64,000 nt of DNA. Origin: Pseudomonas alcaligenes (lineage in GTDB: Bacteria; Pseudomonadota; Gammaproteobacteria; Pseudomonadales; Pseudomonadaceae). The DNA lies in contig NZ_LZEU01000001.1 in assembly GCF_014490745.1 (NCBI RefSeq), positions 1,387,501-1,451,500 on the forward strand, read 5' to 3'. A program made the position numbers and the translations under genes. Under the pieces are notes generated by a model that did no database searches, was not told where the DNA came from, and saw nothing but the letters and a program-made list of their open reading frames with translations. Of the stretch, positions 8,839 through 32,289 are shown in pieces; positions within the stretch are counted from its first letter, which is position 1, and every line of letters begins with the position of its first letter.

Positions 8839-8881
8839 CTACCCAAGTAGCATGGGGGCGGGTGCCCGGCCTTTCTAGAAT
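8839..8881 (+). promoter_or_regulatory. Candidate promoter of the FIST gene with the TACCCAAGTAG box
   Basis: The box GCTACCCAAGTAGCATGG (8839-8856) contains the dyad CTAC-CCAA-GTAG. A -10-like TAGAAT starts at 8876, 33 bp after the CCAA core. The FIST gene start is at 8916. This is one of at least eight related boxes in the alcohol island. Confidence 0.55.
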
Positions 8882-8915
8882 GACCCCGTCGACAATAGGT
8901 GTATGGGGTAGCCCG

Positions 8916-10079
8916 ATGCAGCAACTGCAATCTGCCGGCGTGGTCACGGCCGTGTCCCATGCCCGTGATGCGGAAACGGTGGCCCAGGAGCTGGCGCGGC
9001 AACTGATCCACCCGCACCTCGGCTTCGTGCTGTTCTTCTGCTCCGCCGAGTACGACCTGGCCAGCCTGGGCCTGGCGCTGCAGCAGTATTTCGGCGGCAT
9101 CCGCGTGGTCGGCTGCACCACGGCCGGCGAGATCACCGTGCAGGGCTACGGCCAGGGCTGCATCAGCGCGGTGGGTTTCGATCACCGCAATTTCTCCATT
9201 GCCAGCGCACTGATCGACGAGATGGATCGCTTCAACCTGATCGATGCCCAGCAGCTGGTCGAACAGCTGGTGGGCGACTGCCGCGGCAATGCCCTGGCGC
9301 CGATCAAGGATCACAGCTTCGCCCTGACCCTGCTCGACGGCCTGTCCAGTCGCGAGGAAGTGGTGTTAGCCGCGCTCAGCGCGGCGCTCGGCGATATTCC
9401 GCACTTCGGCGGCTCGGCCGGCGACGACAATCATCTGACCTGCACCCACGTGTACTACGACGGCGCCTTCCACAGCGGCGCGGCGGTGGTGGTGCTGGTC
9501 AATACCTGGCTGGACTTCGAGGTATTCACTACCCACCACGTCGAGCCGCGCGGCGAGAAGCTGGTGGTGACCCGCGCCGACTCCGAGTCGCGGCGGGTGC
9601 TGGAGCTCAACGCCGCGCCGGCTGCCGAGGAGTACGCGCGGCTGATCGGCGTGCCGCTGGCCGAGCTGGACATGCGCACCTTCGCCGCTCATCCGCTGGC
9701 CGTGCGGATCAAGGATCAGTACTACATACGCTCGATCCAGCAGGTCAACGCGGATCGCAGCCTGACCTTCTACTGCGCGGTGGAGAACGGCATCGTCCTC
9801 ACCGCGATGGAACCGGGCGCGCTGCTGCCCAACCTGCAGCAGCAGTTCCAGCGCCTGCGTGCGCGCCTCGGCCCGCCGCTGCTGACCATCGGCTGCGATT
9901 GCGTGCTGCGCCGTCTGGAGCTGACAGGTGGCAGCGGCCTGCAGGAGGTCTCCGCGTTCCTCTGCGAGCAGCGGGTGATCGGCTTCAACACCTACGGGGA
10001 GCAGTTCAATGGCATGCATATCAACCAGACCTTTACCGGGGTCGCCATTGGACGTCCCGACCATGGCCAGGGAAGCTGA
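8916..10079 (+). CDS. FIST domain sensory protein
   Basis: FIST proteins are sensory modules thought to bind small ligands next to signalling proteins. Residues about 1-200 contain the N-terminal FIST domain (FVLFFCSAEYDLASLGLALQQYFGGIRVVGCTTAGEIT). The C-terminal FIST_C part includes FAAHPLAVRIKDQYYIRSIQ and LTIGCDCVLRRLEL. The protein has 387 residues. ATG 8916 was chosen over an in-frame ATG at 8862 because it follows a purine-rich site and gives the usual N terminus. The end overlaps the next kinase gene by 17 bp. Co-translation suggests that it is a ligand-binding partner of that kinase. The pair matches PA1975-PA1976 of P. aeruginosa. Confidence 0.88.
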   Translation: MQQLQSAGVVTAVSHARDAETVAQELARQLIHPHLGFVLFFCSAEYDLASLGLALQQYFGGIRVVGCTTAGEITVQGYGQGCISAVGFDHRNFSIASALIDEMDRFNLIDAQQLVEQLVGDCRGNALAPIKDHSFALTLLDGLSSREEVVLAALSAALGDIPHFGGSAGDDNHLTCTHVYYDGAFHSGAAVVVLVNTWLDFEVFTTHHVEPRGEKLVVTRADSESRRVLELNAAPAAEEYARLIGVPLAELDMRTFAAHPLAVRIKDQYYIRSIQQVNADRSLTFYCAVENGIVLTAMEPGALLPNLQQQFQRLRARLGPPLLTIGCDCVLRRLELTGGSGLQEVSAFLCEQRVIGFNTYGEQFNGMHINQTFTGVAIGRPDHGQGS

Positions 10080-12642
10080 ACTGGAGGCGCGCATCGCCGA
10101 GCTGGAGGCGCAGAACGCCCGCCTGCGCACGATCAACGCGGCGCTGATCGAGCGGGTCGAGTCCGGCCATTCGCTGCGCTCCGACGGCTACGCGGCGTTC
10201 CAGTATTCGGTGGTACTGGCCGAGCAGGTGCGCGAGCGCACCGACGCGCTGAACCAGACCCTGACCGAGCTGAAGTCCAGCAACCAGCTGCTCAGCGCCG
10301 CACGCCAGCGGGCCGAGACGGCGCACCAGCACCTGATCGATGCCATCGAGAGCATTTCCGATGCCTTCGTGCTGTTCGACAAGGAGCAGCGCATCGTCCT
10401 GTTCAATAGCCGCTTCAAGGAGTTCTGGTCGCGCACTCGCGCGCGCATCGGCAGCGGTACCCGCCTCAGCGAGATCAAGCGCCTGGCGCAGAGCACCGGG
10501 CTGATAGTCGAGGAACAGCGCGGCCGCGGCGACGGGCACATGGTCTACCGCCTGATCAACGGGCGCTGGGTACAGGTCAGCGAGCGCGCCACCCGCGAGG
10601 GCGGCCTGGTGATCCTCTACACCGACATCACCGAGCTCAAGCAGAGCGAGACCCAGCGTCGCGAGCAGGCCCTGGCGCAGAAGTCGCGGCTGCTGCAGCG
10701 GGCGGTGGACAACCTGTCCCAGGGCGTGGCGATGGTCAACGACGAGGGCCAGCTGGAGCTGTGGAACCATCGCTTCCTGCAGCTTTGCGGCCTGGCGCCG
10801 ATCGAGGCGCACCGGCCCTTCGCCGAGGTGATGGCCGACAGCGAGCTGCGCCTGCTCACCCCGGACAGCCGCGACGAGCAGGGCGCGCCACTGCACGAGT
10901 GCGAGCAGCGCCTGTTCGACGGGCGCATGCTCGAAGTGCGCACCCATCCGCTTCCGGCCGGCGGCTTCGTCAACACCTTCACCGACATCACCGAGCGCTG
11001 CCGCCAGGCCGAGGCATTGAGCGAGAGCGAGCGCTGGGTGCGCCTGATCACCGACCAGGTACCGGCGCTGATCGCCTACCTGACCGCCGACCTGGTCTAC
11101 GAATTCACCAACAAGGTCTACGAGGAGTGGTACCACTGGCCGCGCGGCAGCCTGCTCGGGCGCAACCTGCGCGAGGTGCACAGCGAGGAGCACTGCCGGC
11201 GCCTGCAGCCCTACATCGACCGCGCCCTGGACGGCGAGAGCGTCAGCTTCGAGGTCACCGAAACCAACCTCAGCGGCCAGGAGCGCGGCATGCTGCGCTC
11301 CTACGTGCCCAACCGCCTGGCCAGTGGCGAGGTGGTCGGCATCTTCGTGCTGATCCGCGATATCACCGAGCGCCGGCGCACCTCCGAGGCCCTGCACCAG
11401 GCCTACCAGAACCTCGAGCAGCGGGTGCGTGAGCGCACCGCCGAACTGACCGCGCTGAACAGCCAGCTGCGCCGCGAGATCGATGAACGCAGCCAGGCCG
11501 AGGCACGCCTGCGCGAGGCCAAGCGCGAGGCCGAACTGGCCAACCTGTCGAAGACCAAGTTCCTTGCCGCCGTCAGCCACGACCTGCTGCAGCCACTCAA
11601 CGCCGCGCGGCTGTTCACCAGCGCCCTGCTGGAGCAACAGCAGGCCTCGGGCGGCGGGCTGATCCGCAATATCAGCAATTCGCTGGAAGACGTGGAGAAC
11701 CTGCTCGGCACCCTGGTGGACATCTCCAAGCTGGACGCCGGGGTGGTCAAGCCGGATATCTCCAGCTTCGCCGTCGGCGACCTGCTCGGCAACCTGGCCG
11801 CCGAGTTCCGCCAGCTGGCCGGCAGCGAGGGCCTGGAGTTGCGCTTCGTGCCCAGCTCGGCCTGCGTGCGCAGCGATATCCAGCTGCTTGCGCGGATCCT
11901 GCGCAACCTGCTGACCAATGCCATTCGCTACACCGCCAGCGGACGCATCCTGCTCGGTTGCCGGCGCCGCGGGCAGAGCCTGTCGATCGAAGTGTGGGAC
12001 ACCGGCATGGGCATCGCCGAGGACAAGCTCGGCGAGATCTTCCAGGAGTTCAAACGTGGCGATAACCAGTGCCACCAGGATCGCGGCCTGGGCCTGGGCC
12101 TGGCCATAGTCGACAAGATCGCGCGCATGCTCGGCCACCGCGTGCGGGTGGCCTCGCGCCTGGGGCAGGGCACCCTGTTCGCCCTCGAGGTGCCGCTGAC
12201 CCGCCGGGTCAGCCTGCTGCAGCAGCGCCAGGAGGTATTGCCGCTGGCCGGCGAGGCGCTGCAGGGCGCACGTATCTGGGTGCTGGATAACGATGCGGCG
12301 ATCTGCGCCGGCATGCGCACCCTGCTCGAAGGCTGGGGCTGCCAGGTGGTCACCGCGCTGTCCGAAGACGACCTGGCGCGCCAGGTCGACAACTACCACG
12401 CCGGCGCCGACCTGCTGATCGCCGACTACCACCTCGACGACGGCCGCGATGGCGTGCAGGCGGTGACCGCCATCAACGCCCGCCGCGGCGAACCGCTGCC
12501 GGCGCTGATGGTCACCGCCAACTACAGCAACGAGCTCAAGCAGAGCCTGCGCGAGCTGGGACATACCCTGCTGCACAAGCCGGTCAAGCCGCTGAAGCTG
12601 AAGACCACCCTGAGCCACCTGCTGCTGCAGGGGCGGCGCTAG
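10063..12642 (+). CDS. ercS': Soluble PAS hybrid histidine kinase, ErcS'-like
   Basis: This 859-residue cytoplasmic hybrid kinase has no membrane segment. A coiled-coil N terminus is followed by three PAS-like domains (about 100-200, 220-320 and 330-440), separated by helices. The HisKA domain has KFLAAVSHDLLQPLNAARL with the phospho-accepting His near residue 506. An HATPase follows (NLLTNAIRYTASG, DTGMGIAEDKLGEIFQEF, GLGLGLAIVDKIA). The C-terminal receiver domain has its Asp near 788 (LLIADYHLDDG) and a conserved Lys (LLHKPVKP). It overlaps the FIST gene. By similarity and context it is ErcS' (PA1976), part of the sensory network controlling ethanol oxidation. It has the same HDLLQPLNAARL and DYHLDDG motifs as ErcS in this window. 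Confidence 0.9.
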   Translation: MAREAELEARIAELEAQNARLRTINAALIERVESGHSLRSDGYAAFQYSVVLAEQVRERTDALNQTLTELKSSNQLLSAARQRAETAHQHLIDAIESISDAFVLFDKEQRIVLFNSRFKEFWSRTRARIGSGTRLSEIKRLAQSTGLIVEEQRGRGDGHMVYRLINGRWVQVSERATREGGLVILYTDITELKQSETQRREQALAQKSRLLQRAVDNLSQGVAMVNDEGQLELWNHRFLQLCGLAPIEAHRPFAEVMADSELRLLTPDSRDEQGAPLHECEQRLFDGRMLEVRTHPLPAGGFVNTFTDITERCRQAEALSESERWVRLITDQVPALIAYLTADLVYEFTNKVYEEWYHWPRGSLLGRNLREVHSEEHCRRLQPYIDRALDGESVSFEVTETNLSGQERGMLRSYVPNRLASGEVVGIFVLIRDITERRRTSEALHQAYQNLEQRVRERTAELTALNSQLRREIDERSQAEARLREAKREAELANLSKTKFLAAVSHDLLQPLNAARLFTSALLEQQQASGGGLIRNISNSLEDVENLLGTLVDISKLDAGVVKPDISSFAVGDLLGNLAAEFRQLAGSEGLELRFVPSSACVRSDIQLLARILRNLLTNAIRYTASGRILLGCRRRGQSLSIEVWDTGMGIAEDKLGEIFQEFKRGDNQCHQDRGLGLGLAIVDKIARMLGHRVRVASRLGQGTLFALEVPLTRRVSLLQQRQEVLPLAGEALQGARIWVLDNDAAICAGMRTLLEGWGCQVVTALSEDDLARQVDNYHAGADLLIADYHLDDGRDGVQAVTAINARRGEPLPALMVTANYSNELKQSLRELGHTLLHKPVKPLKLKTTLSHLLLQGRR

Positions 12643-12649
12643 AGCTGGT

Positions 12650-13483
12650 TCAGGCCCTGGCCTTGGCCAGCAGGATCAGGGCAATCCCACCCAATACCGC
12701 CACTGAGGCGAGCAGCAGGCGCAGGCTGAAGGCTTCGCCCAGCAGCAGGTTGCCGGCCACGGCGGCGATGATGGGGACGCTGAGCTGCACGCTGGCCGCC
12801 TGCATGGCGCGCAGATGGGGCAGGGCGGCATACCAGATGGCGTAGCCGATGCCCGAGGCCAGCGCACCGGAGAGGATGGCGTAGAGCGCGCCGAGTCCGT
12901 CCCAGCCGAGCTGGTGCCGGTACAGCGCGATGAGGGGCAGCAGGGCCGGCAGGCTGCGCAGGAAGTTGCCGGCGGTGGCGGCCAGTGGGTCGGCGTTGCC
13001 GCGCCCGAGCAGCGAGTAGAAGGCCCAGGCCACGCCGGCCAGCACCATCAGGCCGGCAGCCTGGGGTGAAGGTGCGCTGGCGCCGGGCAGCAGGAGAAAC
13101 AGCAGGCCGCCGAGGGCGCTGGTCAGGCCGAGCAGTTGCAGCGGACGCAGCCGTTCGCCGTGCAGCCAGCCATAGCCGAGCATGCTGGCCTGCACCGCGC
13201 CGAACAGGATCAGTGCGCCGCTGCCGGCATCCAGCTCGACGTAGGCAAAGGAGAAACCGGCGGCGTAGCCGAACAGCGCCAGGGCCGAGCGCCAGTCGCC
13301 ACGCAGCGGCCCCTGGCGGCGCAGCAGAACCAGCAGGGCCAGCACCAGGGCGCCGGAGCACAGGCGGATGGCGGTGAAGCTGGCCGGGTCGAGGGCGCTG
13401 TCACGCAGGGCCGCGCGGCACAGCAGGGAGTTGCCGGCAAAGGCCAGCATGGCCAGTGCCGTGAGCACTACGACACGCAGCAT
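12650..13483 (-). CDS. EamA/DMT-family inner-membrane transporter
   Basis: This 277-residue protein has ten predicted hydrophobic helices in two EamA repeats. The first starts AMLAFAGNSLLCRAAL. The second starts LAGVAWAFYSLLGRG and carries the typical SVQLSVPIIAAVAGNLLLGE segment near its end. Such proteins export or import small metabolites across the inner membrane; the substrate is unknown. The start overlaps the erbR stop by one base (TGATG), so the two genes are an operon. It corresponds to PA1977 in the P. aeruginosa order. It converges with the ErcS'-like gene, leaving only 7 bp between them. Confidence 0.87.
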   Translation of the reverse strand: MLRVVVLTALAMLAFAGNSLLCRAALRDSALDPASFTAIRLCSGALVLALLVLLRRQGPLRGDWRSALALFGYAAGFSFAYVELDAGSGALILFGAVQASMLGYGWLHGERLRPLQLLGLTSALGGLLFLLLPGASAPSPQAAGLMVLAGVAWAFYSLLGRGNADPLAATAGNFLRSLPALLPLIALYRHQLGWDGLGALYAILSGALASGIGYAIWYAALPHLRAMQAASVQLSVPIIAAVAGNLLLGEAFSLRLLLASVAVLGGIALILLAKARA

Positions 13484-14148
13484 CAGCGGCGCAGGTAGGC
13501 AGCGAAGTCGATGTCACCGGCGCTGAGGATCGCCTGCACCCGGTTGTGCACATTGAGTTTGCGCAGGATTGCCGAGACATGCGCCTTGACCGTGGTCTCG
13601 GCGATATCCAGGTTGTAGGCGATCTGCTTGTTCGACTCGCCCTTGGTCATCCGCTCCAGCACCAACAGCTGCTTGCGGGTCAGCGCCTGCAGCAGTTCCG
13701 GGGGGATGCTCGGCTCGTCGTGGCCGTGGCGGCGCGGGCTGCTCTTCTGCGTGCGGATGATGTCGGAAGGCAGGTAGACGTTGCCGTTGAGGATCTGCTC
13801 GATGGCCTCGGTCATCTGCGCGCGCGGCGAGGACTTGGTGATGAAGCCGACGGCGCCGTAAGTGATGGCCTGCAGCACGATCTGCTTGTCCTGCTCGGCT
13901 GAGACGATCACCACCGGGATGGTCGGCGCCTCGTTGCGCAGGTTGATCAGGCCGTTGAGGCCGTGCATGCCGGGCATGTTCAGGTCGAGCAGAATCAGGT
14001 CGAGGTCGTCATGCTCCTGGGTCAGTTCCAGGGTGCTGTCGAGATCGGCGGTCTCCATCACCGCGCTGCCGGGGAAACCATCGCTGACCACGTTGTGGAT
14101 GGCCTCGCGAAACAGCGGGTGATCGTCGGCGATGAGGATCTTGTACAT
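13483..14148 (-). CDS. erbR: LuxR-type response regulator ErbR (AgmR)
   Basis: This 221-residue NarL/LuxR-type response regulator has a receiver domain with the acidic DDH at 8-10, the phosphorylation site Asp55 ([10 protein letters not shown]) and a conserved Lys (FITKSS). After a linker comes a C-terminal helix-turn-helix ([43 protein letters not shown]). ErbR/AgmR activates genes of PQQ-dependent alcohol oxidation in Pseudomonas. It is called PedR1 in P. putida. It is the only LuxR-type regulator in this island and therefore the first candidate to bind the recurrent TACCAAGG-like box. No partner kinase is adjacent. Confidence 0.92.
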
Positions 14149-14202
14149 GGCCTTTAGACCTCGTTCTTATGATGGTTGTGCAGGCTGCCCGAGGGCGTCT
14201 GC

Positions 14203-14763
14203 TCACGGCAGTGCAACAGGCTCGGCGGGGTTTAGCGGCAGGCCGGCCTGTTGCCAGGCATCGATACCGTCACGGTACCAGTAGAGGTTGCTGTAGCCCA
14301 GCGCACGGGCGCGTTTGACCGCGTTCCACGATAGCCAGCAGTCGGATTTGCAGTAGAACACCAGGGCGAGGTTGCTGCGCTGGTCGCTGGCGCGCGCCAG
14401 GTTGTCGGCGAAGTAATCCCGCCACAGCGGCTCCAGGTTGCCGTCGCCGGTGTTGGCCAGCCAGATACTGCCGGGCAGGTTGGCGTGTGGCGGCTGGTCG
14501 GGGACAAAGCGCTGGTTGAGCCATTGCTGGCGGAACACATCGACCAGCACGGCTTCCGGGTGCTCGTGCAGCAGACGCAGCAGGGCGGCGGTATCCAACG
14601 TGCGGGCACCCTCGGCGCTGGCCGGGGTGGGGCTGCGGTACTGGCTCTGGCGATAGCCCTCGGCGTTGAACAACGCTTCCGGTTCGGCCATGGCCGGGCC
14701 GTGCAGCAGGCACAGGGCGAGCAGGGGTGGGGGCAGCAAGGTGGTGAGGATCGACTTCCGCAT
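14203..14763 (-). CDS. PQQ-associated rhodanese-like periplasmic protein with a CxxxCW motif
   Basis: This 186-residue precursor has a signal peptide (MRKSILTTLLPPPLLALCLLHGPAMA). Its fold pattern is rhodanese-like (LLRLLHEHPEAVLVDVFRQQ). The motif YCKSDCWLSWNAVKRA contains C138, C142 and W143. This matches the family named PQQ-dependent catabolism-associated CXXCW motif protein. In this sequence the spacing reads C-x-x-x-C-W. Family members co-occur with the PQQ-linked ABC system encoded just downstream here. A periplasmic redox or thiol role is likely but unproven. A copy of the regulatory box lies upstream on the minus strand. Confidence 0.87.
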   Translation of the reverse strand: MRKSILTTLLPPPLLALCLLHGPAMAEPEALFNAEGYRQSQYRSPTPASAEGARTLDTAALLRLLHEHPEAVLVDVFRQQWLNQRFVPDQPPHANLPGSIWLANTGDGNLEPLWRDYFADNLARASDQRSNLALVFYCKSDCWLSWNAVKRARALGYSNLYWYRDGIDAWQQAGLPLNPAEPVALP

Positions 14764-14797
14764 GGCAGGCTCCCGGGTCGATTTTATTGCCTCATTA

Positions 14798-14840
14798 GAG
14801 CCACAGCGCCCTACTTGTGGGAATGCTACGTTGGGGAGGG
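14798..14840 (-). promoter_or_regulatory. Candidate promoter of the CxxxCW gene with the CCCCAACGTAGCAT box
   Basis: Read on the minus strand, TCCCCAACGTAGCATTC has its CCAA core at 14834-14831. TCTAAT follows 35 bp downstream as a -10-like hexamer. A second half-site, CCACAAGTAGG, lies between them. The gene starts at 14763. The box is close to the one upstream of the FIST gene. Confidence 0.45.
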
Positions 14841-14922
14841 AAAACTAAGACCTAAGTACTGGTTTTGCCTCCCGCAGCCTGTTGCGGATTGCCCGTAGAG
14901 CGTATGGCGCAGCCTAGGCAGC

Positions 14923-15716
14923 CTAGGCAGCGTTGCGGCGCAGGGCGGCATGCTGTGGGTTGAAACTGAGCACGGCGAGCACGCCGAACAGCAGGGTCAG
15001 GCCCAGGCAGACCGCAGCGGCCAGCAGATTGCAGCGCAGGTAGAGGGCGTAGCGCACCAGCTCCACGGCATGGCTGAACGGGTTGAGCGCACACAGCCAG
15101 TACAGCCACTCGCTGGCCTCGCGCATCTTCCACAGCGGGTAGAGCGCCGAGGACAGGAAGAACAGCGGGAAGATCACGAAATTCATCACCCCGGCGAAGT
15201 TCTCCAGCTGGCGGATGCCGTTGGACAGCAGCAGGCCCAGGGCCGCCAGCAGCAGCGCCACCAGCAGCAACGCCGGTAGTGCGGCGAGCAGGCCCCAGGC
15301 CGGCGGCTGCACGCCATAGAGCCAGGCCACGGCGAGGAAGGCATACACCTGCAGCAGGGCGACCAGCGCCGTGGCCAGCAGCTTGCAGGCCAGCAGGAAG
15401 GCGCGTGGCAGCGGGCTGGTCAGCAGCACGCGCATGCTGCCCATCTCGCGGTCGTAGACCATCGCCAGCGAGCCCTGCATGCCGCTGAACAGCAGGATCA
15501 TGCAGGCCAGGCCGGGGACTATGTAGGTCTCATAGGTGATGTAGGTGTCGTAGGGGGCGATGATGGCGATGCCCAGGGCGGCGCGGAAACCGGCGGCAAA
15601 TACCAGCAGCCACAGCAACGGGCGCACCAGGGCGCTGAACAGGCGGGTGCGCTGCTGGATGAAGCGCAGCCACTCGCGCAGCAGGATGCCGCGCAGGCAT
15701 TCGCCGTAGGCGCTGT

Positions 15717-15720
<4 letters not shown>
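14923..15720 (-). CDS. pedC: ABC transporter permease of the PQQ alcohol dehydrogenase system (PedC-like)
   Basis: This 265-residue ABC-2-type permease has six hydrophobic segments. They include LLWLLVFAAGFRAALG and MNFVIFPLFFLSSALYPLW, the latter with the typical ABC-2 P-L-x-F-L-S-S motif. It begins inside a 4-bp overlap with the ATPase gene. The set (ATPase, permease, beta-propeller, binding-like protein) is conserved next to PQQ alcohol dehydrogenases; in P. putida it is called pedABC and was proposed as an exporter. Two copies of the 9-base unit CAGCCTAGG span the stop codon (about 14911-14930). Confidence 0.88.
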
Positions 15721-16444
<724 letters not shown>

Positions 16445-16448
<4 letters not shown>

Positions 16449-17410
16449 GGCGTGACCACCACGCCCCAGGGGTAGCGGCCGACCTTGATCGACTTGCTGA
16501 CCTTGAGGCTGTCGACGTCGATCACCGAGACATCGCCGCTGATCCCGTTGGTGGCCAGCAGCAGTTTCTCGTCGGGACTGAAGGCCAGGTGCCAGACACG
16601 GCGGCCCACCAGCAGGTAGGCGAGCACCTCGTAGCTGTGGGCATCGACCACCGCCACATGGTTGGCCGGGCCTAGGGCGACGAAGGCGTACTTGCCATCG
16701 CGGCTCAGCTTGACCCCGACCGGCTGCACCTTGTCCGGGTGCACGCCCTTGATCTTGAAGCCGATCACCTTGAGCGGCTGGCGCGTGGCGACATCCACCA
16801 CGGTGACGGTGCCGCCGATTTCCGCGCTGGCCCACAGCTGCTTGCCGTCCTGGCTGAACTCGACATGGCGCGGGCGCTGGTCGACCAGGGTGCTGTCCAC
16901 CAGGCTCTGCGTGGCGGTGTCGATCCAGTGCAGCATGTTGGTGGTTTCGCTGGTGTTGACCGCCCAGCGGCCGTCCGGGCTGACGGCCATGCCTTCGGGC
17001 TCGACGCCAACGTCGATCTGGCCGAGCACCTTGTCGTCCACTGTGTCGACCACGGTGACCAGCGCATCGTCCTCGTTGGAGATGTACAGCCAGCGGTCGT
17101 TGGGGTGCAGGGCGAACTGCTCGGGGTCGGCGCCGGAGGGCAGGTTCTTGATGATCCGCCGGCTGGCCAGATCCATCACCTGCACGGTGTTGGAGTCGCT
17201 GGCGCAGATGTACAGCAGCTGGTTGTCGCGCGACAGCGCCAGGCCGCGCGGGCGCTCGCCGACCGCCAGGGTCTCGGTGACCTGCAGGGTGGCCAGGTCG
17301 ATCACGCTGATGCTGTTGTCCTTCTCGTTGGAGACGTAGGCAGTGGCGGCGTGAACCGGGCCGGCGAGCAGGGCGCTGGCGAACAGGGTGGCAAGCGGGA
17401 AACGGGGCAT
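16445..17410 (-). CDS. PQQ-dependent catabolism-associated beta-propeller protein
   Basis: This 321-residue protein starts with a signal peptide (MPRFPLATLFASALLAGPVHA). Seven YVTN-type repeats follow (NSISVIDLATLQVTETLAVGERPRGLALSRD, and VSVIDVDSLKVSKSIKVGRYPWG at the end). It should be a periplasmic seven-bladed propeller. The family is consistently linked to the PQQ ABC system. ATG 17410 was chosen because GAAGGA lies at the right distance. An ATG at 17431, in an ATGA overlap with the upstream small gene, is also possible. The substrate is unknown. Confidence 0.88.
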
Positions 17411-17427
17411 GGCGGCAATCCTTCGGG

Positions 17428-17694
17428 TCATGGGCGGGAGGGCGGAGTGCCCGGTTCAGCGGCGCTGCGCGCCAGCAGTTGCGCGGCTTGCCGGTCATTC
17501 CAGGCATTGGCGCAGTCCTCCAGGCGCGCCTGGCGATCCTCGCCCCGCGCAGCGGCCAGGCGGGCGTACAGGCAGGGCAGGCGCTGGCTGCTGACCAGGT
17601 AGGCGCTGCGCAGGGGCTGCTCCGGCGGCGGCAGGCTGACCGCCACGCCGCCGCCGAGCAGGGCCGGCAGCAGGCCGGCGAGAAGCAGTTTCAC
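17428..17694 (-). CDS. Small secreted protein of the PQQ ABC operon, unknown function
   Basis: This 88-residue protein has a hydrophobic N terminus (MKLLLAGLLPALLGGGVAVSLPPP) that looks like a signal peptide. Two cysteines (LPCLYARLAAARGEDRQARLEDCANAW) could form a disulfide. It overlaps the upstream gene by 4 bp and may overlap the downstream gene in the same way, so it is very probably real. I do not recognise a family. The first half of the mature part resembles a small helical hairpin. Confidence 0.72.
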   Translation of the reverse strand: MKLLLAGLLPALLGGGVAVSLPPPEQPLRSAYLVSSQRLPCLYARLAAARGEDRQARLEDCANAWNDRQAAQLLARSAAEPGTPPSRP

Positions 17695-18890: not shown

Positions 18891-18970
18891 GGCAGGGACT
18901 CCGCGAGGGGTGTCGCCAGCATAGGAACAGAGCCTCAGGCCGCGAAATATGCAGAAAGTAGCGAGCGGGC

Positions 18971-19014
18971 GGTACCAAGGTAGTAGGTCGCGCGGCGGGG
19001 CGAGCCCCTAGCAT
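18971..19014 (+). promoter_or_regulatory. Candidate promoter with the GGTACCAAGGTAGTAGG box
   Basis: The box (18971-18987) contains the dyad TACC-AA-GGTA. A -10-like TAGCAT starts at 19009, 34 bp after the CCAA core. It points toward the small ORF at 19054. It could also act divergently on the minus-strand ABC gene set that starts at 18890. Confidence 0.55.
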
Positions 19015-19053: not shown

Positions 19054-19185
19054 ATGCGCACCCTCAAGACCCTGGTTCTGCCGCTGCTGCTGATCGCCAG
19101 CATGATCGGTTTCGACAGCCTGCGCCTGGCCGGCGAACGGCTGCTCGGCGCAGTGGCCGGGGTGGCGGTGTTCGACCGCCGCTAG
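19054..19185 (+). CDS. Candidate small membrane protein of 43 residues
   Basis: The ORF MRTLKTLVLPLLLIASMIGF... ends in VAVFDRR. It has one hydrophobic segment with a positively charged N terminus, so it could be a single-pass membrane peptide or a secreted peptide. A ribosome site is weak (GGAG about 14 bases upstream). Support comes from the promoter-like box at 18971, which would otherwise lack a plus-strand target. The ORF sits where pedE/exaA lies next to the cytochrome gene in other Pseudomonas. No family is recognised. Confidence 0.45.
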   Translation: MRTLKTLVLPLLLIASMIGFDSLRLAGERLLGAVAGVAVFDRR

Positions 19186-19224: not shown

Positions 19225-19243
19225 CTAGTACCAAGGGAGGAGG
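19225..19243 (+). promoter_or_regulatory. TACCAAGGGAGGAGG box upstream of exaB
   Basis: CTAGTACCAAGGGAGGAGG lies about 129 bp before the cytochrome gene. The -10 element is not clear; CATTCT at 19262 is the nearest match. The core ACCAAGGGAG is identical to the pedH box. Confidence 0.5.
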
Positions 19244-19353
19244 GGCTGGCCACCAAAGCAGCATTCTGCGGGGCATGGCTGCTTCCTACCATGGGGCCAA
19301 GGCGCTCGTAGCGGGTGCCTGCCTTGCTCAGCAACTCGAAGAGGTTGGAAGTC

Positions 19354-22418: not shown

Positions 22419-22424
22419 GTTGCT

Positions 22425-22733: not shown

Positions 22734-22788
22734 GCAGGACTTCCTTGCTCGGGCTGAAGGGGGTTAGTGCAGTGCGTAGGGCGGGTGA

Positions 22789-22812
22789 AACCCGCGTGTC
22801 GATGCGCGGGTT
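22789..22812. repeat. GC hairpin AACCCGCG/CGCGGGTT beside the OsmC-YcaO gene
   Basis: A perfect 8-bp inverted repeat with an 8-base loop lies just past the end of the OsmC-YcaO gene. It is preceded by GTAGGGCGGGTGAAACCCGC, a common Pseudomonas intergenic repeat type. No T tract follows on either strand, so it is not a clear terminator. Confidence 0.6.
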
Positions 22813-22834
22813 GTTCTCTCCCTGAATGGCACGA

Positions 22835-25033
22835 TCAGCGGGCCGCCGCTTTGGCCCGAGCTGCGTGCAGCTTCTTGTAGCTGTCGATCAGGCGCAGGTG
22901 CTTGTCGAGGCCTTCCAGTTTCATGCTGGTCGGCGTCAGGCCATGGAAGCGCACGCTGCCGTCCACCGAGCCGATCGCCGCGTCCATCCGCTCGTTGCCG
23001 AACATGCGGCGGAAGTTGGTCTCGTAGTCGGCCAGCTCCAGCTCGTCGTCCAGTTGCACTTCCAGCACCGCGTTCACTGCCTGGTAGAACAGGCCGCGCT
23101 CGACGGTGTTGTCGTTGTACTGCAGGAACATCTCCACCAGCTCCTTGGACTCGTCGTATTTCTTCAGCGCCAGGTGGATCAGCAGCTTCAGCTCGAGAAT
23201 GGTCAACTGGCCCCACACCGTGTTGTCGTCGAACTCGATGCCGATCAGCGTGGCGATAGTGGTGTAGTCATCGACCTCGCTGTTCTCCAGGTTGCGCAGC
23301 AGGGATTTCAGACCGCGGTTGTCCAGGCTGTGCAGGTTGAGGATGTCGGCGCGGAACAGCAGGGCCTTGTTGGTGTTGTCCCAGACCAGGTCTTCCACCG
23401 GATAGATCTCCGAGTAACCGGGCACCAGGATGCGGCAGGCATTGGCACCGAGGTCGTCGTAGGTCGCTACGTACACTTCCTTGCCGAGATCCTCGAGGAT
23501 GCCGAACAGGGTGGCGGCTTCCTGGCTGTTGGAGTCTTCACCCTGGCCGGAGAAGTCCCACTCGACGAATTCGTAGTCGGCCTTGGCGCTGAAGAAGCGC
23601 CACGACACCACGCCGCTGGAGTCGATGAAGTGCTCGACGAAGTTGTTCGGTTCGGTCAGCGCCAGGCTGTCGAAGGTCGGCTGCGGCAAGTCGTTGAGGC
23701 CCTCGAAGCTGCGGCCCTGGAGCAGCTCGGTGAGGCTGCGCTCCAGCGCCACCTCGAAGCTGGGGTGCGCGCCGAACGAGGCGAACACGCCGCCGGTGCG
23801 CGGGTTCATCAGGGTCACGCACATCACCGGGAATTCGCCGCCCAGCGAGGCATCCTTGACCAGCACCGGGAAGCCCTGGGCTTCCAGACCCTGGATGCCG
23901 GCGACGATGCCGGGGTACTTGGCCAGCACCTCCTGCGGCACGTCCGGTAGGGCCAGTTCCTCTTCGAGAATCTCGCGCTTGACCGCGCGCTCGAAGATTT
24001 CCGACAGGCACTGCACCTGCGCTTCGGCCAGGGTGTTGCCGGCGCTCATGCCGTTACTGAGGTAGAGGTTTTCGATCAGGTTGCTGGGGAAGTACACCAC
24101 CTCGCCGTCGGACTGGCGCACGAACGGCAGCGAGCAGATGCCGCGCGCCTTGTTGCCGGAGTTGGTGTCGTACAGGTGCGAGCCGCGCAGCTCGCCCTCC
24201 GGGTTGTAGATGGCCAGGCAATGCTCGTCGAGGATTTCCTCCGGCAGCGCGTCCTTCGGCCCCGGCTTGAACCACTGCTCGTTGGGGTAGTGGACGAAGT
24301 CGGCATTGGCGATCTCCTCGCCCCAGAACTGGTCGTTGTAGAAGAAGTTGCAGTTCAGTCGCTCGATGAACTCGCCCAGCGCCGAGGCCAGCGCACTTTC
24401 CTTGGTCGCGCCCTTGCCGTTGGTGAAGCACAGCGGCGACTGCGCATCGCGGATATGCAGCGACCAGACGTTGGGCACGATATTGCGCCAGGAGGCGATC
24501 TCGATCTTCATGCCCAGGCCGGCGAGGATGGCCGACATGTTGGCGATGGTTTCTTCGAGGGGCAGATCCTTGCCGAGGATGCGCGTGCCTTCGCCTTCGG
24601 TCAGCGCCGGCATCAGCAGGGCCTGGGCATCGGCGTCGAGGTTGTCGACCTCCTCGATGATGAAGTCGGGGCCGGTCTGCACCACCTTCTTCACCGTGCA
24701 GCGGTCGATGGAGCGCAGGATGCCCAGGCGATCCTTGTCGGAGATGTCCGCCGGCAGCTCGACCTGGATCTTGAAGATCTGCTTGTAGCGGTCTTCCGGG
24801 TCGACGATGTTGTTCTGCGACAGGCGGATGTTTTCCGTGGGGATATTGCGCGTTTGGCAGTACAGCTTGACGAAGTAGGCCGCACACAGCGCCGAGGACG
24901 CCAGGAAATAGTCGAACGGCCCCGGTGCCGAGCCATCGCCCTTGTAGCGGATGGGCTGGTCGGCGATCACCGTGAAGTCATCGAACTTGGCTTCGAGACG
25001 GAGGTTGTCGAGAAAGTTGACCTTGATTTCCAT
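22835..25033 (-). CDS. OsmC-YcaO fusion protein
   Basis: This 732-residue protein has an N-terminal OsmC-like domain (about 1-140: RLEAKFDDFTVIADQPIRYKGDGSAPGPFDYFLASSALCAAYFVKLYCQTRNI). A YcaO ATP-binding domain follows (about 160-560). It contains KGATKESALASALGEFIERL and SEIFERAVKRE. The C terminus is helical and TPR-like. YcaO domains activate amides with ATP; E. coli YcaO supports RimO-dependent methylthiolation of ribosomal protein S12. OsmC-fused forms are common in gammaproteobacteria. The gene interrupts the usual order of PQQ accessory genes and pedH. It has no operon partner. Any link to alcohol oxidation is only positional. Confidence 0.88.
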   Translation of the reverse strand: MEIKVNFLDNLRLEAKFDDFTVIADQPIRYKGDGSAPGPFDYFLASSALCAAYFVKLYCQTRNIPTENIRLSQNNIVDPEDRYKQIFKIQVELPADISDKDRLGILRSIDRCTVKKVVQTGPDFIIEEVDNLDADAQALLMPALTEGEGTRILGKDLPLEETIANMSAILAGLGMKIEIASWRNIVPNVWSLHIRDAQSPLCFTNGKGATKESALASALGEFIERLNCNFFYNDQFWGEEIANADFVHYPNEQWFKPGPKDALPEEILDEHCLAIYNPEGELRGSHLYDTNSGNKARGICSLPFVRQSDGEVVYFPSNLIENLYLSNGMSAGNTLAEAQVQCLSEIFERAVKREILEEELALPDVPQEVLAKYPGIVAGIQGLEAQGFPVLVKDASLGGEFPVMCVTLMNPRTGGVFASFGAHPSFEVALERSLTELLQGRSFEGLNDLPQPTFDSLALTEPNNFVEHFIDSSGVVSWRFFSAKADYEFVEWDFSGQGEDSNSQEAATLFGILEDLGKEVYVATYDDLGANACRILVPGYSEIYPVEDLVWDNTNKALLFRADILNLHSLDNRGLKSLLRNLENSEVDDYTTIATLIGIEFDDNTVWGQLTILELKLLIHLALKKYDESKELVEMFLQYNDNTVERGLFYQAVNAVLEVQLDDELELADYETNFRRMFGNERMDAAIGSVDGSVRFHGLTPTSMKLEGLDKHLRLIDSYKKLHAARAKAAAR

Positions 25034-25177
25034 GGGGCAGTACCGGCGCGCGAAACAAAATGGCCGCCATTATCCGGGTTTTCCGGGGAAAGTCCTGCCC
25101 GAACCTGCGAGCGGTCATGTGGCTGGTGGCAAGGTACGGGCGCGAGGGTGGGTGGCAATCGGGCGCCAGAGCTCTGC

Positions 25178-25202
25178 GTAGGGCGCGCACGGCGCACCCT
25201 AC
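25178..25202. repeat. GTAGGG...CCCTAC hairpin upstream of the OsmC-YcaO gene
   Basis: GTAGGGCGC and GGCGCACCCTAC form a stem with a small internal bulge. It lies between the OsmC-YcaO start and the end of the next minus-strand gene. A related GTAGGGCGGG element lies at the other side of that gene. Confidence 0.5.
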
Positions 25203-25217
25203 AAAGGCGGGGCGAGA

Positions 25218-26462
25218 CTATTGCAGGGTCAGGTTGTCGCCGCGTTCCTGCTGCCAGTCGTCCAGGCTCGGCGCGGCCTGTTCGCCGGCCATGCGGTGGA
25301 TGACTTCGAAGTAGTCCTGCTTGTAGGGATCGCGCATCACTTCGGCGCGGCTGCGCACACGCACGGCATAGATGCTCTGCACGTTCTGGTGGTCGAAGGC
25401 GCGCCACTGCTGTTCGTCCTTGAGCAGGCTGTAGCTGTGATCCTCCAGGGCGCCGATCAGCTGTTCGCTGTTCAGGCTGCGGCTGCGGCTGCGCTGCACG
25501 GCGTCGGCCCACTGGCGGACGATGGCGTAGGCCGAGGCGGTGGTGCTGCCGGGGTACTCCTGGTACTCGGCGATGTAGCGCTCGACGAAGTCCTGGCCGA
25601 TAGGGTTGTTGTCCTGCCGGGGCAGATCCCAGGTCCAGGCCAGGGTGCCGATCACGCCTTCCATCACGACCGGGCCGGCCTGCTGCACCACGCTCTTGGT
25701 CAGGTTGGGCACTATCACCTGTACCTGCTTGTGCAGCTGCATGTTGTGCAGCATGCGCATGCTGCGCTGCAGGTTGTCGCCGAGCAGAACCAGCACCAGG
25801 ACGTCGGCCTTGCTGGCGGCGGCCTTTTCCAGGGCCTGGCGGTACTGCTCGTGGCGCACCAGGCCGCTGGGCAGGTTGCTGTGGCCGTGGCGGGCGCGGT
25901 CGGTGCTGCCGGTGGCGCGGCGCAGGGCGTCTTCCATGCTGCGGCCCCAGGCGTCGTCGATGCTGATGTAGTAGTAGTGCCGGCGCGGCATGTGCCAGCT
26001 GAGGTATTCGCCGAGTACGCGGGCGCTCATCCAGGCACTGTTGGATTCGCGGAACAGGTAGCGGTGGCCGTTGAGGCCGGTGACGTCGTTGGCATAGCTG
26101 AGGGTGGCGAAGTACAGCAGACCCAGCTCGCGGGCGCGCTGGCCGGCGGCGATGGCCTCTTCGCTGGTGGCGCCGCCAAACACCATGCGCGCGCCCTGGG
26201 CGACCAGGCGATCGACGTTGTCACGAGCCTGCTCGGCACGCGAGGCGGTATTGGCGCTGAGCAGTTCCAGCGGCTGGCCGAGCACGCCGCCGCTGCGGTT
26301 GATATCGGCGACGGCGAGCAGGGCACCGCGGCGCAGCTCCAGGCCCTCGTCCTTGTAGTTGCCGGTGCGCGGGTAGTTGAGGCCGATCTTCAGGCTGGGG
26401 GCGGCGTGGGCCGGCAGGCCGCAGAGGGCGGCGAGCAGCAGGCAGGCAAGCGGGCGAAGCAT
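25218..26462 (-). CDS. Orphan branched-chain-type periplasmic ligand-binding protein
   Basis: This 414-residue precursor has a signal peptide ([20 protein letters not shown]). Its fold is type-1 periplasmic binding protein, as in LivJ ([49 protein letters not shown]). It has no permease or ATPase nearby. The start at 26462 is fixed by AAGGAG seven bases upstream. It is divergent from pedH with 271 bp between. Possible roles are ligand sensing for a membrane partner or substrate capture. It differs from the shorter binding-like protein at 17691 but has the same fold. The function is inferred only at fold level. Confidence 0.83.
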
Positions 26463-26609
26463 GGGGCACTCCTTGTGCGTGGGGGAGTGCCGTTGTACGG
26501 AGGTGCGCCGCCTGTCGCCATGCGCCCTTGGGGGCGGCTGGCCGGCACTTAGGTCTTCGGTCACGCGGTGGAGGCGCATGCCGGGTGGCATGTTGCGCGG
26601 CGGGGTATT

Positions 26610-26627
26610 GCTACCAAGGGAGTATGG
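26610..26627 (+). promoter_or_regulatory. GCTACCAAGGGAGTATGG box upstream of pedH
   Basis: This is the best-matching copy of the island's box, 124 bp before the pedH start. No clean -10 is seen at the spacing found for the other copies; AATTGT at 26645 is the nearest. It shares ACCAAGGGAG with the exaB box. Confidence 0.55.
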
Positions 26628-26706
26628 AATTCGGCACTGCGGTCAATTGTTGAGCAGGCGCGGCGAACCAAGAATCTGCGGCAGACCGGGAAAATTTCCC
26701 GGGCAC

Positions 26707-26715
26707 AACAACAAG
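26707..26715 (+). promoter_or_regulatory. A-rich tract before the pedH ribosome site (candidate Hfq/Crc site)
   Basis: AACAACAAG lies 19 bases before the ATG, next to the ribosome site (GAGG). It fits the AANAANAA pattern bound by Hfq/Crc. Confidence 0.4.
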
Positions 26716-26733
26716 CCCGTAGAGGTAGCCGCA

Positions 26734-28515
26734 ATGAAACACAACGGTCTCACCCAGCCTTTCGTTTGCACGGCGCTGTTTGCCGCGATGAGCCTGGCCA
26801 GCCTGTCGGCCCATGCCGCGGTCAGCGATGAAGACATCAGCGCCAGTGGCAAGCGCACCGATCAGGTGGTGGTCAACGGTATCAACCAGCAGGGCCAGCG
26901 CTACAGCACCCTGGATACCCTGAACAGCAGCAACGTGCAGGAACTGCGGCCGGTCTGGGCGCTGTCCTTCGGTGGCGAGAAGCAGCGCGGCCAGCAGGCC
27001 CAGCCGATGATCAAGGATGGCGTGATCTATGTCACCGCCTCCTACTCGCGGGTGTTCGCGGCCGATGCGCGTACCGGCAAGAAACTCTGGCAATACGATG
27101 CGCGCCTGCCCGACGGCATCATGCCGTGCTGCGACGTGATCAACCGCGGCGTGGCCCTCTACGGCGACCTGGTGATCTTCGGCACCCTCGACGCCAAGCT
27201 AGTGGCACTGAACAAGGACACCGGCAAGGTGGTGTGGAAGAAGACCGTGGCCGACTACAAGGCTGGTTACTCCATCTCCGCGGCGCCGCTGATCGCCAAG
27301 GGCAAACTGATCACCGGCGTGGCCGGCGGCGAGTTCGGCGTGGTCGGCAAGATCGAGGCCTACGACCCGCAGAATGGCGAGCTGCTGTGGACCCGGCCGA
27401 CCGTGGAAGGCCACATGGGCTATGTCTACAAGGATGGCAAGGCCGTGGAGAACGGCATCTCCGGCGGCGCCCCGGGCAAGACCTGGCCGGGCGATCTGTG
27501 GAAAACCGGCGGCGCGGCACCCTGGCTGGGCGGCTTCTATGACCCGACCACCGATTCGCTGTTCTTCGGCACCGGCAACCCGTCGCCGTGGAACTCGCAC
27601 CTGCGTCCCGGCGACAACCTGTTCTCCTCCTCGCGCCTGGCGCTGAATCCGGAAGACGGCTCGATCAAGTGGCACTTCCAGACCACCCCGCACGACGGCT
27701 GGGACTACGACGGCGTCAACGAACTGGTGTCGTTCGACTACCAGGACGGCGGCAAGACCGTGCAGGCCGCGGCCACTGCCGATCGTAACGGCTTCTTCTA
27801 CGTGCTCGACCGCACCAACGGCAAGTTCATCCGTGGCTTCCCCTTCGTCGACAAGATCACCTGGGCCAAGGGCCTGGACAAGGACGGCCGGCCGATCTAC
27901 GACCCGACCCATCGTCCTGGCGCACCGGGCGCCGAGAAGAAGGGCAGCTCGGTGTTCGTCGCACCGTCCTTCCTCGGTGGCAAGAACTGGATGCCCATGG
28001 CCTACAGCCAGGACACCGGGCTGTTCTACGTGCCGTCCAACGAGTGGGGCATGGACATGTGGAACGAGGGCGTGGCCTACAAGAAGGGCGCGGCCTACCT
28101 CGGCGCCGGCTTCACCATCAAGCCGCTGAACGAGGACTACATCGGCGTGTTGCGCGCCATCGATCCGAAGAGCGGCAAGGAAGTCTGGCGCTACAAGAAC
28201 TACGCACCGCTGTGGGGTGGAGTGCTGGCGACCAAGGGCAACCTGGTATTCACCGGCAACCCGGAAGGCTACCTGATGGCCTTCGACGCCAAGAGCGGCA
28301 AGAAGCTCTACCAGTTCAACACCGGCTCGGGCGTGATCGCCTCGCCGATCACCTGGGAAATGGACGGCGAGCAGTACGTCACCGTGCTGTCCGGCTGGGG
28401 TGGTGCGGTACCGCTGTGGGGCGGCGAAGTGGCCAAGCGGATCAAGGATCTGGATCAGGGCGGGATGATCTGGACCTTCAAGCTGCCCAAGGCAGATGCC
28501 ATCGCCAAGCGCTGA
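26734..28515 (+). CDS. pedH: PQQ-dependent alcohol dehydrogenase, lanthanide-type (PedH-like)
   Basis: This 593-residue precursor has a signal peptide ending at AHA near 28. It is an eight-bladed quinoprotein with adjacent cysteines C132-C133 (PCCDV), which form the unusual vicinal disulfide over PQQ. Metal-site residues are E200, N282 and catalytic D324. D326, two residues after D324 in WDYDG, is the extra Asp that marks lanthanide-dependent enzymes. Calcium-type enzymes carry a small residue there. Length and sequence resemble PedH of P. putida more than ExaA/PedE (about 620-630 residues). It oxidises alcohols and aldehydes in the periplasm. The ATG at 26734 follows GAGGTAGC. A terminator follows the gene. 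It is the only PQQ dehydrogenase in the window. Confidence 0.93.
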
Positions 28516-28530
28516 TCGCACCTGACACGC

Positions 28531-28562
28531 ACAAGCCGGCCACGCGCCGGCTTGTTCGTTTG
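28531..28562 (+). terminator. Terminator after pedH
   Basis: A perfect 10-bp stem ACAAGCCGGC/GCCGGCTTGT with a 5-base loop is followed by a T-rich TCGTTTG. It lies 15 bases past the pedH stop. Confidence 0.8.
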
Positions 28563-28583
28563 TGCCCCGGCCAAAGCGGCCGT

Positions 28584-28629
28584 CTACGACCAAGGCACCA
28601 TGGCCCGCCGCTGCGGCGCGGCGCCTAAT
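28584..28629 (+). promoter_or_regulatory. Candidate promoter of the chemoreceptor gene with the CTACGACCAAGGCACCATGG box
   Basis: The CCAA core is at 28590. CCTAAT follows at 28624, 34 bp downstream, as a -10-like hexamer. The gene starts at 28685. Confidence 0.45.
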
Positions 28630-28684
28630 GCTGCGACAACCAGAACAGGGCCGACGTCTGCAGTGGCCCGATGCGAGGTGCGCG

Positions 28685-30328
28685 ATGTTCGCCCAACGAT
28701 GGCTTTCCCTGCTGCCCGGCCTGCTCCAGTTGCTCGGGCTGCTTCTGCTGCTGTACTGGCAACCGCGTGGCTGGCTGGCGCTGGCCGCCTGCGTGCCGCT
28801 GCTGATCCTGTTGCTCGGCCTGCCGGCGCTGCTTCGTGGGCGGCGCTCGCCGGAGCCGGCAAGCACGGCCGACGAGGCGCTGGCCGGGCTCAGCCGCGAG
28901 CTGTCGCAGACCACCACGCACAATGCCCTGTCGGCCGCCGAGGTGGCCTATGCGGTGAAGCAGCTGGCCGCGCGCCAGGCCTCGCAACTGCAGGGTGCGG
29001 CCAGCATAGTGGCCAGCGCCGAAGTGATGATCGCCACCGAGGAGCAGACCCGCGTGCTCGGCCAGCAGGCCCTGGCGGCTGCCTGCGCGGTGCGCCACAG
29101 CAGCGACGACGGGCGCCAGGTGGTGCAGCAGAGCATCCAGCGCATGCACCAGCTGAGCGAGCGGGCCAGTGCCAGCCGCGAGCTGATCGAGGCCCTCAGT
29201 CAGCGCAGCGAGGATATCCAGCGGGTTACCCAGGTGATCCAGGCGATTGCCAGCCAGACCAATCTGCTGGCGCTCAACGCGGCCATCGAGGCGGCGCGGG
29301 CCGGCGAGTACGGGCGCGGTTTCGCGGTGGTCGCCGACGAGGTGCGCGGGCTGGCCGGGCGCACCGCCAGCGCCACCGAGGAGGTCGGCCAGATGGTCGG
29401 CGAGATCCAGCGCCAGACCGCCGCCGTGGTCGAGCAGATCCGCCAGCTGGCCGTGGATCTGACGGCCGGGGTCGGCACCGCCGAGCAGGCCGGCAGCAGC
29501 CTGGAGCATATCGCCGGGCTGGCGCAGGGGGTGGAAAGCCAGCTCGGCGAAATCGCCCGTGGCACCGAGGTCAATCGCGAGCAGCTGGGCAGCCTGTTCG
29601 CCGCCGTCGAGCAGATGCGCGTCGAACTGCTCGACAGCGAGGCCGACACCCGCCGCCTGGGCGCCGCGGCCGAGCGCCTGGAAGGGCAGGCCGAGCAGAT
29701 CAGCGAACGACTCAGCAGCGTGGCCCTGGACGACTACCACCAGCGCGCCTATGACCTGGCCCGCGATGGTGCCGCAGCGATTGCCGCGCAGTTCGAGAAG
29801 GATCTCGATAGCGGGAAGGTCAGCCTCGACGATCTGTTCGACCGCCACTACCAGGAGCAGCCCGGCACCTTCCCGAGCAAGTACCGCACACGCTTCGATG
29901 CCTACACCGACCGCGTCCTGCCGGCCATCCAGGAGCCCCTGCTGAGCGGCCACGAGGGCCTGGTGTTCGCCATCGCCTGCACCGCCGAAGGCTATGTGCC
30001 GACCCACAACCAGGCGTTCAGCGCGCCGCCCACGGGCGACCGCCAGCGCGACATGGCGGCCAGTCGCAGCAAGCGCCTGTTCAACGATCGCACTGGCATC
30101 CGCTGCGGCAGCCACCAGCAGCCGCTGCTGCTGCAGACCTACACCCGCGACACCGGCGAGCTGATGCACGACCTGTCGGTGCCGATCCATATCCGCGGCC
30201 GCCACTGGGGCGGCTTGCGCCTGGGCTACAAGCCGCAGCAGGCGCTGCGCGGCGAGCCAGTGCGGGATGGGCTAGGGTCAACGGCGCGACCGCCGGCGCA
30301 CCGCTTCCAAACATCTACTACCAAATGA
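28685..30328 (+). CDS. Methyl-accepting chemotaxis-type receptor with a C-terminal sensor domain
   Basis: This 547-residue protein has two close transmembrane helices at the N terminus ([19 protein letters not shown] and [17 protein letters not shown]) with almost no periplasmic part. The signalling domain contains [35 protein letters not shown]. After about residue 390 comes a C-terminal domain ([50 protein letters not shown]) of the type that ends many Pseudomonas chemoreceptors. The likely sensor is therefore cytoplasmic. ATG 28685 was preferred because of GAGGTG upstream; the frame is open earlier. Its place between pedH and exaC suggests taxis toward alcohols or their oxidation products. 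Confidence 0.86.
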
Positions 30329-30332
30329 GGAG
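30315..30332 (+). promoter_or_regulatory. CTACTACCAAATGAGGAG box upstream of exaC
   Basis: The copy overlaps the end of the chemoreceptor gene and lies 126 bp before exaC. CATACC at 30352 is the nearest -10-like sequence. Confidence 0.4.
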
Positions 30333-30440
30333 CGCTTCTGGCCCTTGGGCGCATACCCGCGCCGCAGAGCGGCTGCAAAGATTCGACCATGACCTGTCCC
30401 ATGCCCGGTGCAGGCTCCAACAGTAGAAGAGAGGCCCATC

Positions 30441-31961
<1,521 letters not shown>

Positions 31962-31969
31962 TCGACCTT

Positions 31970-32009
31970 GGCTGCGGTCGGTGCCTGGCACTGTCCGCAG
32001 CCTTTTTTT
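31970..32009 (+). terminator. Rho-independent terminator after exaC
   Basis: Stem GGCTGCGG/CCGCAGCC with a 17-base apical part is followed by seven T residues. It begins 8 bases after the exaC stop. Confidence 0.9.
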
Positions 32010-32118
32010 CATCGTGCACAGGGACTGTGCGGATCGGTCGGCAGGCTGCACTGGGCGGCCGGCGAGCGGCGCATGCGCGGTTCGCTGGCAGCGTTTACCC
32101 GTCGACGGATCGTCATCG

Positions 32119-32146
32119 GCGCGGCCCATGGGTCGCGCTTTTTTTT
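32119..32146 (+). terminator. Second strong terminator between exaC and pqqA
   Basis: Stem GCGCGGCC/GGTCGCGC (one G-T pair) with loop CATG is followed by eight T residues. It is 110 bp after the exaC terminator with no annotated gene between, so it may end an unannotated short transcript or act as a backup. Confidence 0.85.
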
Positions 32147-32223
32147 ACCCGGAATTCCCCTGGGGGCAGCGCGCGCAGCGGCTTCTGCTGTCCGGATGCG
32201 CACGGCGTACAGAAGCCTGCGGG

Positions 32224-32289
32224 CCTACCAAGGTCAGCGCAATCTACTCCCAAAGTACCATTTGGCCGCCTGCCGTCCGGGGGCTTAAT
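32224..32289 (+). promoter_or_regulatory. Candidate pqqA promoter with two regulatory boxes
   Basis: CCTACCAAGGTCAGC (32224) and CTACTCCCAAAGTACCATTTGG (32244) lie in tandem. CTTAAT at 32284, 34 bp after the second CCAA core, is a -10-like hexamer. pqqA starts at 32334. Confidence 0.5.

Follow-up and report, generated by a model that had tools for sequence, protein, structure and literature searches.

The kind of regulatory system described here is already known from the ErbR/AgmR (PedR1) regulon of Pseudomonas; the operator box and extra target promoters are what is added. A study of four operons was reportedly made by Gliese et al. in 2004, and Trouillon et al. are said to have surveyed the response regulators of P. 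aeruginosa by DAP-seq in 2021. A binding motif for ErbR/AgmR was not found in the accessible portions of the literature searched, and the DAP-seq survey may contain one. The available part of one study places EraSR, cytochrome c550 and PQQ synthesis under ErbR (PMC8913705), and a second, also available in part, describes control of exaA by EraSR, itself under ErbR (PMC4686015). The ErbR-2 iModulon is given as PA1975-PA1990, beginning at nosP, in the accessible text of a third (PMC9023270), and the accessible text of a fourth identifies PA1975 as nosP (PMC12997753). The distribution of boxes reported here agrees with the published ErbR genetics, with exaB and pqqA both preceded by boxes and an eraR-like gene likewise preceded by one in three loci, while the common operator, its two-box form and the boxes of pedH, nosP-nahK, the chemoreceptor and a small ORF are additions to that regulon.

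Two described DNA motifs are close to the box. NarL recognizes 7-2-7 sites of the form TACYYMT-N2-AKRRGTA, which the boxes (TACTACC-AA-GGnAGTA) equal in half-site length and spacing but from which they differ in half-site letters and in regulon. The ACTU motif of ErdR (CrbR), as presented in the available part of PMC5715377, is an imperfect inverted repeat located just upstream of the promoter with the same left half, TACnACyAA, but differs in its right half (GTC versus nAG) and in its association with acetate genes.

Gene content of the alcohol island

The window, meaning the whole 64-kb stretch of DNA that was analysed, comprises C1:1387501-1451500 of the 4.97-Mb genome G000. Family scans revealed nosP, nahK/ercS', a transporter, a LuxR-type response regulator, a CxxCW gene, pedC, pedB and pedA1, followed by exaB/pedF, a quinoprotein-associated SoxH-like gene, an OsmC/YcaO gene and a periplasmic binding protein and then a PQQ alcohol dehydrogenase, a chemoreceptor, exaC, pqqB and pqqC. 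The dehydrogenase matched 6zcv with 1124 bits and 6zcw with 1114 bits, versus 673 bits for 1flg; the first two we take to be PedH of P. putida and the last ExaA. The response regulator is encoded by erbR (13483..14148, minus strand), the likely reader of the boxes, and contains Response_reg and GerE domains with NarL (1a04) the best match among solved structures. The name erbR rests on the place of the gene and on orthologues of 85-95% identity beside these genes, the family scans giving no such name.

The OsmC/YcaO-domain gene (TIGR03549, 22835-25033) lies inside the alcohol island, and no relative of it was found in 80 pedF loci. The pedB frame (15717-17507) is long, the ABC ATPase model covering residues 357-590 only, and pedB is possibly fused to a further domain, or its start may have been called too early.

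Form and location of the boxes

The box has the form of a NarL-like inverted repeat, CTACTACC-AA-GGnAGTAG, of which the TACCAAGG sequence recognized in an earlier note on this DNA is the centre. The window contains four exact copies of TACCAAGG, at 18973, 19229, 26612 and 32226, all of them at sites listed in that note. The nine boxes that it had placed were confirmed, and boxes precede eight genes or operons: nosP-nahK, CxxCW-erbR, the small ORF, exaB, pedH, the chemoreceptor, exaC and pqqA. Two 7-bp halves around 2 bp, the operator form, are present, with the exaB consensus CTACTACCAAGGGAGTAG over 64 other loci; the inverted repeat is weaker at the nosP, CxxCW and pqqA boxes. Several promoters, those of exaB, pqqA and CxxCW-erbR, have two copies 22 bp apart, and pedH has a single box.

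The boxes were scored with a matrix built from the exaB boxes found in other genomes (50 unique distal and 50 unique proximal), the window being excluded. The proximal box of nosP-nahK (8836..8853, plus strand) scored 15.3, and only if read one base outside the CCAA register, with a -10-like TAGAAT at 8876 and a spacing of 33 bp from CCAA to the hexamer. The proximal box of CxxCW-erbR (14823..14840, minus strand), listed earlier as 14831, scored 1.1 (at 14834(-)) and is followed by a -10-like CTAATG at 14798 with a spacing of 36 bp; orthologues have a CTCCATCGTAGGAT-type sequence at this position. The distal box (14845..14862, minus strand) lies a further 22 bp upstream and is weak in the window, with a score of 6.7. 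The gap divergent from pedA1 contains the single box of the small ORF (18969..18986, plus strand), which scored 17.9, with a -10-like TAGCAT at 19009 and a spacing of 34 bp. The remaining boxes are all on the plus strand. The distal box of exaB/pedF (19225..19242) scored 24.2 and is kept in 64 other loci passing the filter described below; the conserved proximal box (19247..19264), new relative to the earlier list, scored 20.7 with a -10-like TACCAT at 19287 and a spacing of 34 bp. The pedH box (26608..26625), in the distal position, scored 25.4 and is followed by a -35-like TTGTTG at 26647 and a -10-like AAGAAT at 26670. The chemoreceptor box (28584..28601) scored 19.2, with a -10-like TAATGC at 28626 and a spacing of 36 bp. 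The distal box of exaC (30315..30332), which lies within the end of the chemoreceptor gene, scored 19.4 with a -10-like AAAGAT at 30377, and alignment of orthologues revealed a degenerate but conserved proximal element at approximately 30337-30354. The distal box of pqqA (32222..32239), listed earlier as 32224, scored 0.8 (at 32228), although its CCCTACCAA is conserved at a position 22 bp ahead of the proximal box (32244..32261), which scored 18.5 with a -10-like TTAATG at 32285 and a spacing of 35 bp. Comparison with orthologues identifies the 14831 and 32224 sites as the weaker members of conserved box pairs.

The small ORF (19054-19185) encodes 43 amino acids, and its box promoter is strongly conserved. 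Five other loci (L014, L016, L017, L018 and L021) have similar peptides (MRxxxxLxLPxLLxxSLxGFD) after the box, and a similar box in L029, L049 and L053 is followed by a LuxR-type regulator gene in place of the small ORF.

Promoter geometry

The earlier note had proposed that a -10-like hexamer follows the CCAA core by 33-35 bp, so that the box overlaps the -35 position. The spacing is roughly correct for promoter-proximal boxes, being 33-36 bp at nosP, the small ORF, exaB, the chemoreceptor, pqqA and CxxCW, but since the distal boxes are separated from the hexamer by 56 bp at pedH, exaC and exaB and by 57 bp at pqqA the rule is restricted to the proximal box. Overlap with the -35 position likewise holds for the proximal boxes and does not extend to pedH, where the single box sits upstream of a separate -35-like element; the conserved TCAATTGTTG plus AAGAAT of this promoter places TTGTTG 17 bp before AAGAAT, as in a conventional -35. 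If the -10 hexamer starts at -12, the centre of the proximal box would be near -42 and that of the distal box near -64.

Recurrence of the box

The boxes of the earlier note were picked by eye and two of the nine score near zero, consistent with a recurrence that reflects promoter composition or coding coincidence with no common regulator. When the held-out matrix was applied to both strands of the 64-kb window, however, the top eight positions (26608, 19225, 19247, 30315, 28584, 32244, 18969 and 8836) were seven of the nine sites plus 19247, the ninth-ranked position scoring 13.6. In 60 surrogates of the window generated from a first-order Markov model, an average of 0.18 positions scored at least 15, and the best score was 20.4. 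An Infernal profile of 62 boxes, with no sequence from the window, returned seven genome-wide matches at E ≤10, with 150 of 390 candidates scored; six are in the island and the seventh falls within the reading frame of an apparent enoyl-CoA hydratase. The nosP and CxxCW boxes of the window were not listed by this profile, and pqqA reached no better than E 0.66 in the search of the window alone. Among 3000 draws of random 380-bp stretches from the loci compared below, 3.1% reached a score of 12 with the true sites left in. The held-out ranking, the surrogates, the rarity of the box across the genome and the comparison of paired pqq operons given below all oppose coincidence, which is hardly credible as an explanation; the recurrence of the box is real and beyond chance.

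Conservation at orthologous promoters

The earlier note had advised a motif scan of related genomes, and orthologous promoters were found to be boxed. Eighty named pedF loci were compared, of which 64 passed a filter for mismatches and position; those that failed were mostly distant or ended by the end of a contig. Judged by PedF, the best-matching named relatives belong to Pseudomonas, with P. aeruginosa absent from the loci examined by name. In most of the 64 loci the exaB repeat is followed 22 bp downstream by a second copy, CCAAAGCAGnATTC, and then by a TAnnAT-type -10, the box pair being present in Pseudomonas, Stutzerimonas, Marinobacterium, Amphritea and Neptunomonas. A score of at least 12 was reached at exaB in 71 of 79 loci, a count that partly includes training data. 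Promoters outside the training data were also boxed: exaC in 29 of 33 loci and CxxCW in 13 of 18 (opposite strand, at the position of the distal box), both at a score of at least 12, and nosP in 22 of 30 loci, this genome among them, at a score of at least 10. The gap between pedA1 and the small ORF contained a box of at least 12 within 170 bp in 28 of 41 pedA1 loci. Four of seven chemoreceptor orthologues of at least 60% identity have the box and three are without it. The inverted repeat, the geometry, the conservation outside the training data and the specificity for the island support a shared operator of the LuxR (NarL) type, as the earlier note had supposed.

Two matches to pqqB were found in 17 of 119 genomes, which permits the copies to be compared within a genome. 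In 16 of these genomes the pqq copy beside pedF was boxed (16/16, scores of 11.5-15.9) and the other copy was not (0/16, scores of 6.9 or less). The counts for all 17 genomes are 17/17 versus 0/17, but the lower figure is preferred because in the seventeenth, G058, which shows the same pattern, the "island" copy is not on the contig of pedF. Across genomes, the pqqA box is present in 13 of 14 ErbR-positive versus 0 of 16 ErbR-negative genomes; since five of the 13 sites, located 55-56 bp before pqqA and downstream of pqqF, have no evident -10, the within-genome pairs are the preferred evidence.

Other elements were observed before pqqA. The sequence GCGGTACCCAAGTAGTAG occurs between pqqF and pqqA, 55-56 bp before pqqA and lacking a clear -10, in L169, L176, L178, L180 and L181, and a related sequence is present in some ErbR-negative genomes. 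Four ErbR-negative loci (L185, L190, L192 and L193) have in common a different element, TTAGTAACATAGC..., before pqqA that is perhaps the site of another regulator.

The candidate regulator

The boxes at the eight alcohol-island promoters are likely operators of ErbR, a predicted activator, a reading to which we assign a probability of roughly 0.84 on comparative sequence evidence. The earlier note had reached ErbR on the ground that it is the only such regulator encoded here. ErbR is indeed the sole match of the ErbR search inside the window; ErdR and other LuxR-type regulators are, however, encoded elsewhere in the genome, and because ErdR has nearly the same recognition helix the argument from the window does not by itself settle the reader. 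The co-occurrence of ErbR with the box adds to it. ErbR was found in 53 of 53 genomes with PedF and in 7 of 66 others. With stricter filters, the profile matched 48 of 60 ErbR-positive genomes (97 sites) versus 10 of 59 ErbR-negative genomes (13 sites), 12 of the 60 being without a match. Eighty-seven of the 97 sites are within 20 kb of erbR or pedF; this co-occurrence is confounded by the relatedness of the genomes and by the tendency of ErbR to travel with its targets.

ErdR, the acetate/ethanol regulator, is the closest paralogue of ErbR (44%), and its nearly identical recognition helix, together with the left half common to the published ACTU motif, is consistent with ErdR as the reader of the boxes. 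The ACTU examples in the accessible text of that report have a GTC right half (PMC5715377), however, whereas the boxes of the window, except the distal box of pqqA, have A for that C. The two ACTU-like matches of G000 are both outside the window. ErdR is encoded in all 119 genomes, yet the box matches track ErbR in the proportions given above. ErdR is thus an unlikely reader of the boxes, and ErbR is preferred.

The position of the boxes relative to erbR itself was also determined. The CxxCW gene, which a box precedes, ends 54 bp before erbR, and a forward box scoring at least 12 was not found within 350 bp of erbR matches in 40 loci, some of these matches being more distant regulators. A profile match occurs 255 bp before erbR in G051, a genome without PedF. 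In an ErbR-negative genome (L147; G042, contig 16), a strong match lies in the gap beside an undecaprenyl-diphosphatase-like gene and is perhaps the site of another NarL-type regulator.

Lanthanide-type and calcium-type enzyme promoters

The box was found at 41 of 57 PedH-type promoters and on the own strand of 0 of 41 other quinoprotein promoters (35 of the exaA/pedE type and six more distant). EraR (ExaE/PedR2) is a LuxR-type regulator of the same pathway and in that respect a candidate reader, but exaA-type promoters, its target in the available part of PMC4686015, are among those with no box. The helix of EraR differs, and the boxes are intact in G000 although an EraR orthologue was not found among the LuxR-type regulators of this genome (best 39% identity). 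Recognition of the boxes by EraR is therefore very improbable, more so than by ErdR. Chance similarity, and ErdR or EraR as main readers, were rejected on the evidence presented, leaving ErbR as the predicted regulator.

A box precedes an eraR-like or LuxR-type regulator gene in the three loci L029, L049 and L053. Among other LuxR-type regulator genes in the loci, only 3 of 31 are within 300 bp of a box, one such box being shared with CxxCW; a fourth listed row is an artefact of a contig end and excluded from this count. Because the box precedes an eraR-like gene in some clusters with the calcium-type enzyme and none faces exaA or pedE, ErbR would act on the unboxed exaA/pedE promoters mainly through EraR. 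In the divergent exaA-exaB gaps of some loci the exaB boxes are approximately 190-245 bp from exaA, and action on exaA from there is therefore possible. G000 has a single match above the cut-off to the methanol/ethanol PQQ-dehydrogenase family (window 26731-28515), which is of the PedH type, and is possibly a lanthanide-enzyme-only ethanol system.

Proposed mechanism and significance

In the mechanism proposed, a dimer of phosphorylated ErbR would bind the proximal box over the -35 position, with its centre near -42, and touch RNA polymerase. Where a second box is present, this dimer would be stabilized by another one bound some two helical turns upstream, near -64. At pedH, one dimer would act from the distal position, upstream of the -35-like element. 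Since boxes precede CxxCW-erbR and nosP-nahK, ErbR would raise its own level and that of the nosP-nahK sensor-kinase operon in a positive loop. The box-bearing nosP and nahK genes (8862-12642) encode a nitric-oxide sensor and kinase, and sensing of nitric oxide may be coupled to the alcohol regulon.

With somewhat better than even odds, one alcohol-responsive regulator would be wired directly, via a two-site, two-turn operator, to the lanthanide enzyme (pedH), the cofactor, cytochrome and aldehyde steps, its own operon and the nitric-oxide sensor nosP-nahK, the calcium enzyme (exaA/pedE) being unboxed and left to EraR/PedR2. The choice between lanthanide and calcium would then be written in the distribution of ErbR boxes, and G000, which has PedH and seems to lack both PedE and EraR, would operate with only the ErbR layer. 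For a regulon that has been known chiefly through mutants, the box supplies a DNA code that can be tested. The map of boxes indicates the promoters on which ErbR would act directly and distinguishes enzyme promoters of the lanthanide type from those of the calcium type. It also ties alcohol use to a nitric-oxide sensor operon and a chemoreceptor, and offers defined sites for the development of biosensors based on the ped system.
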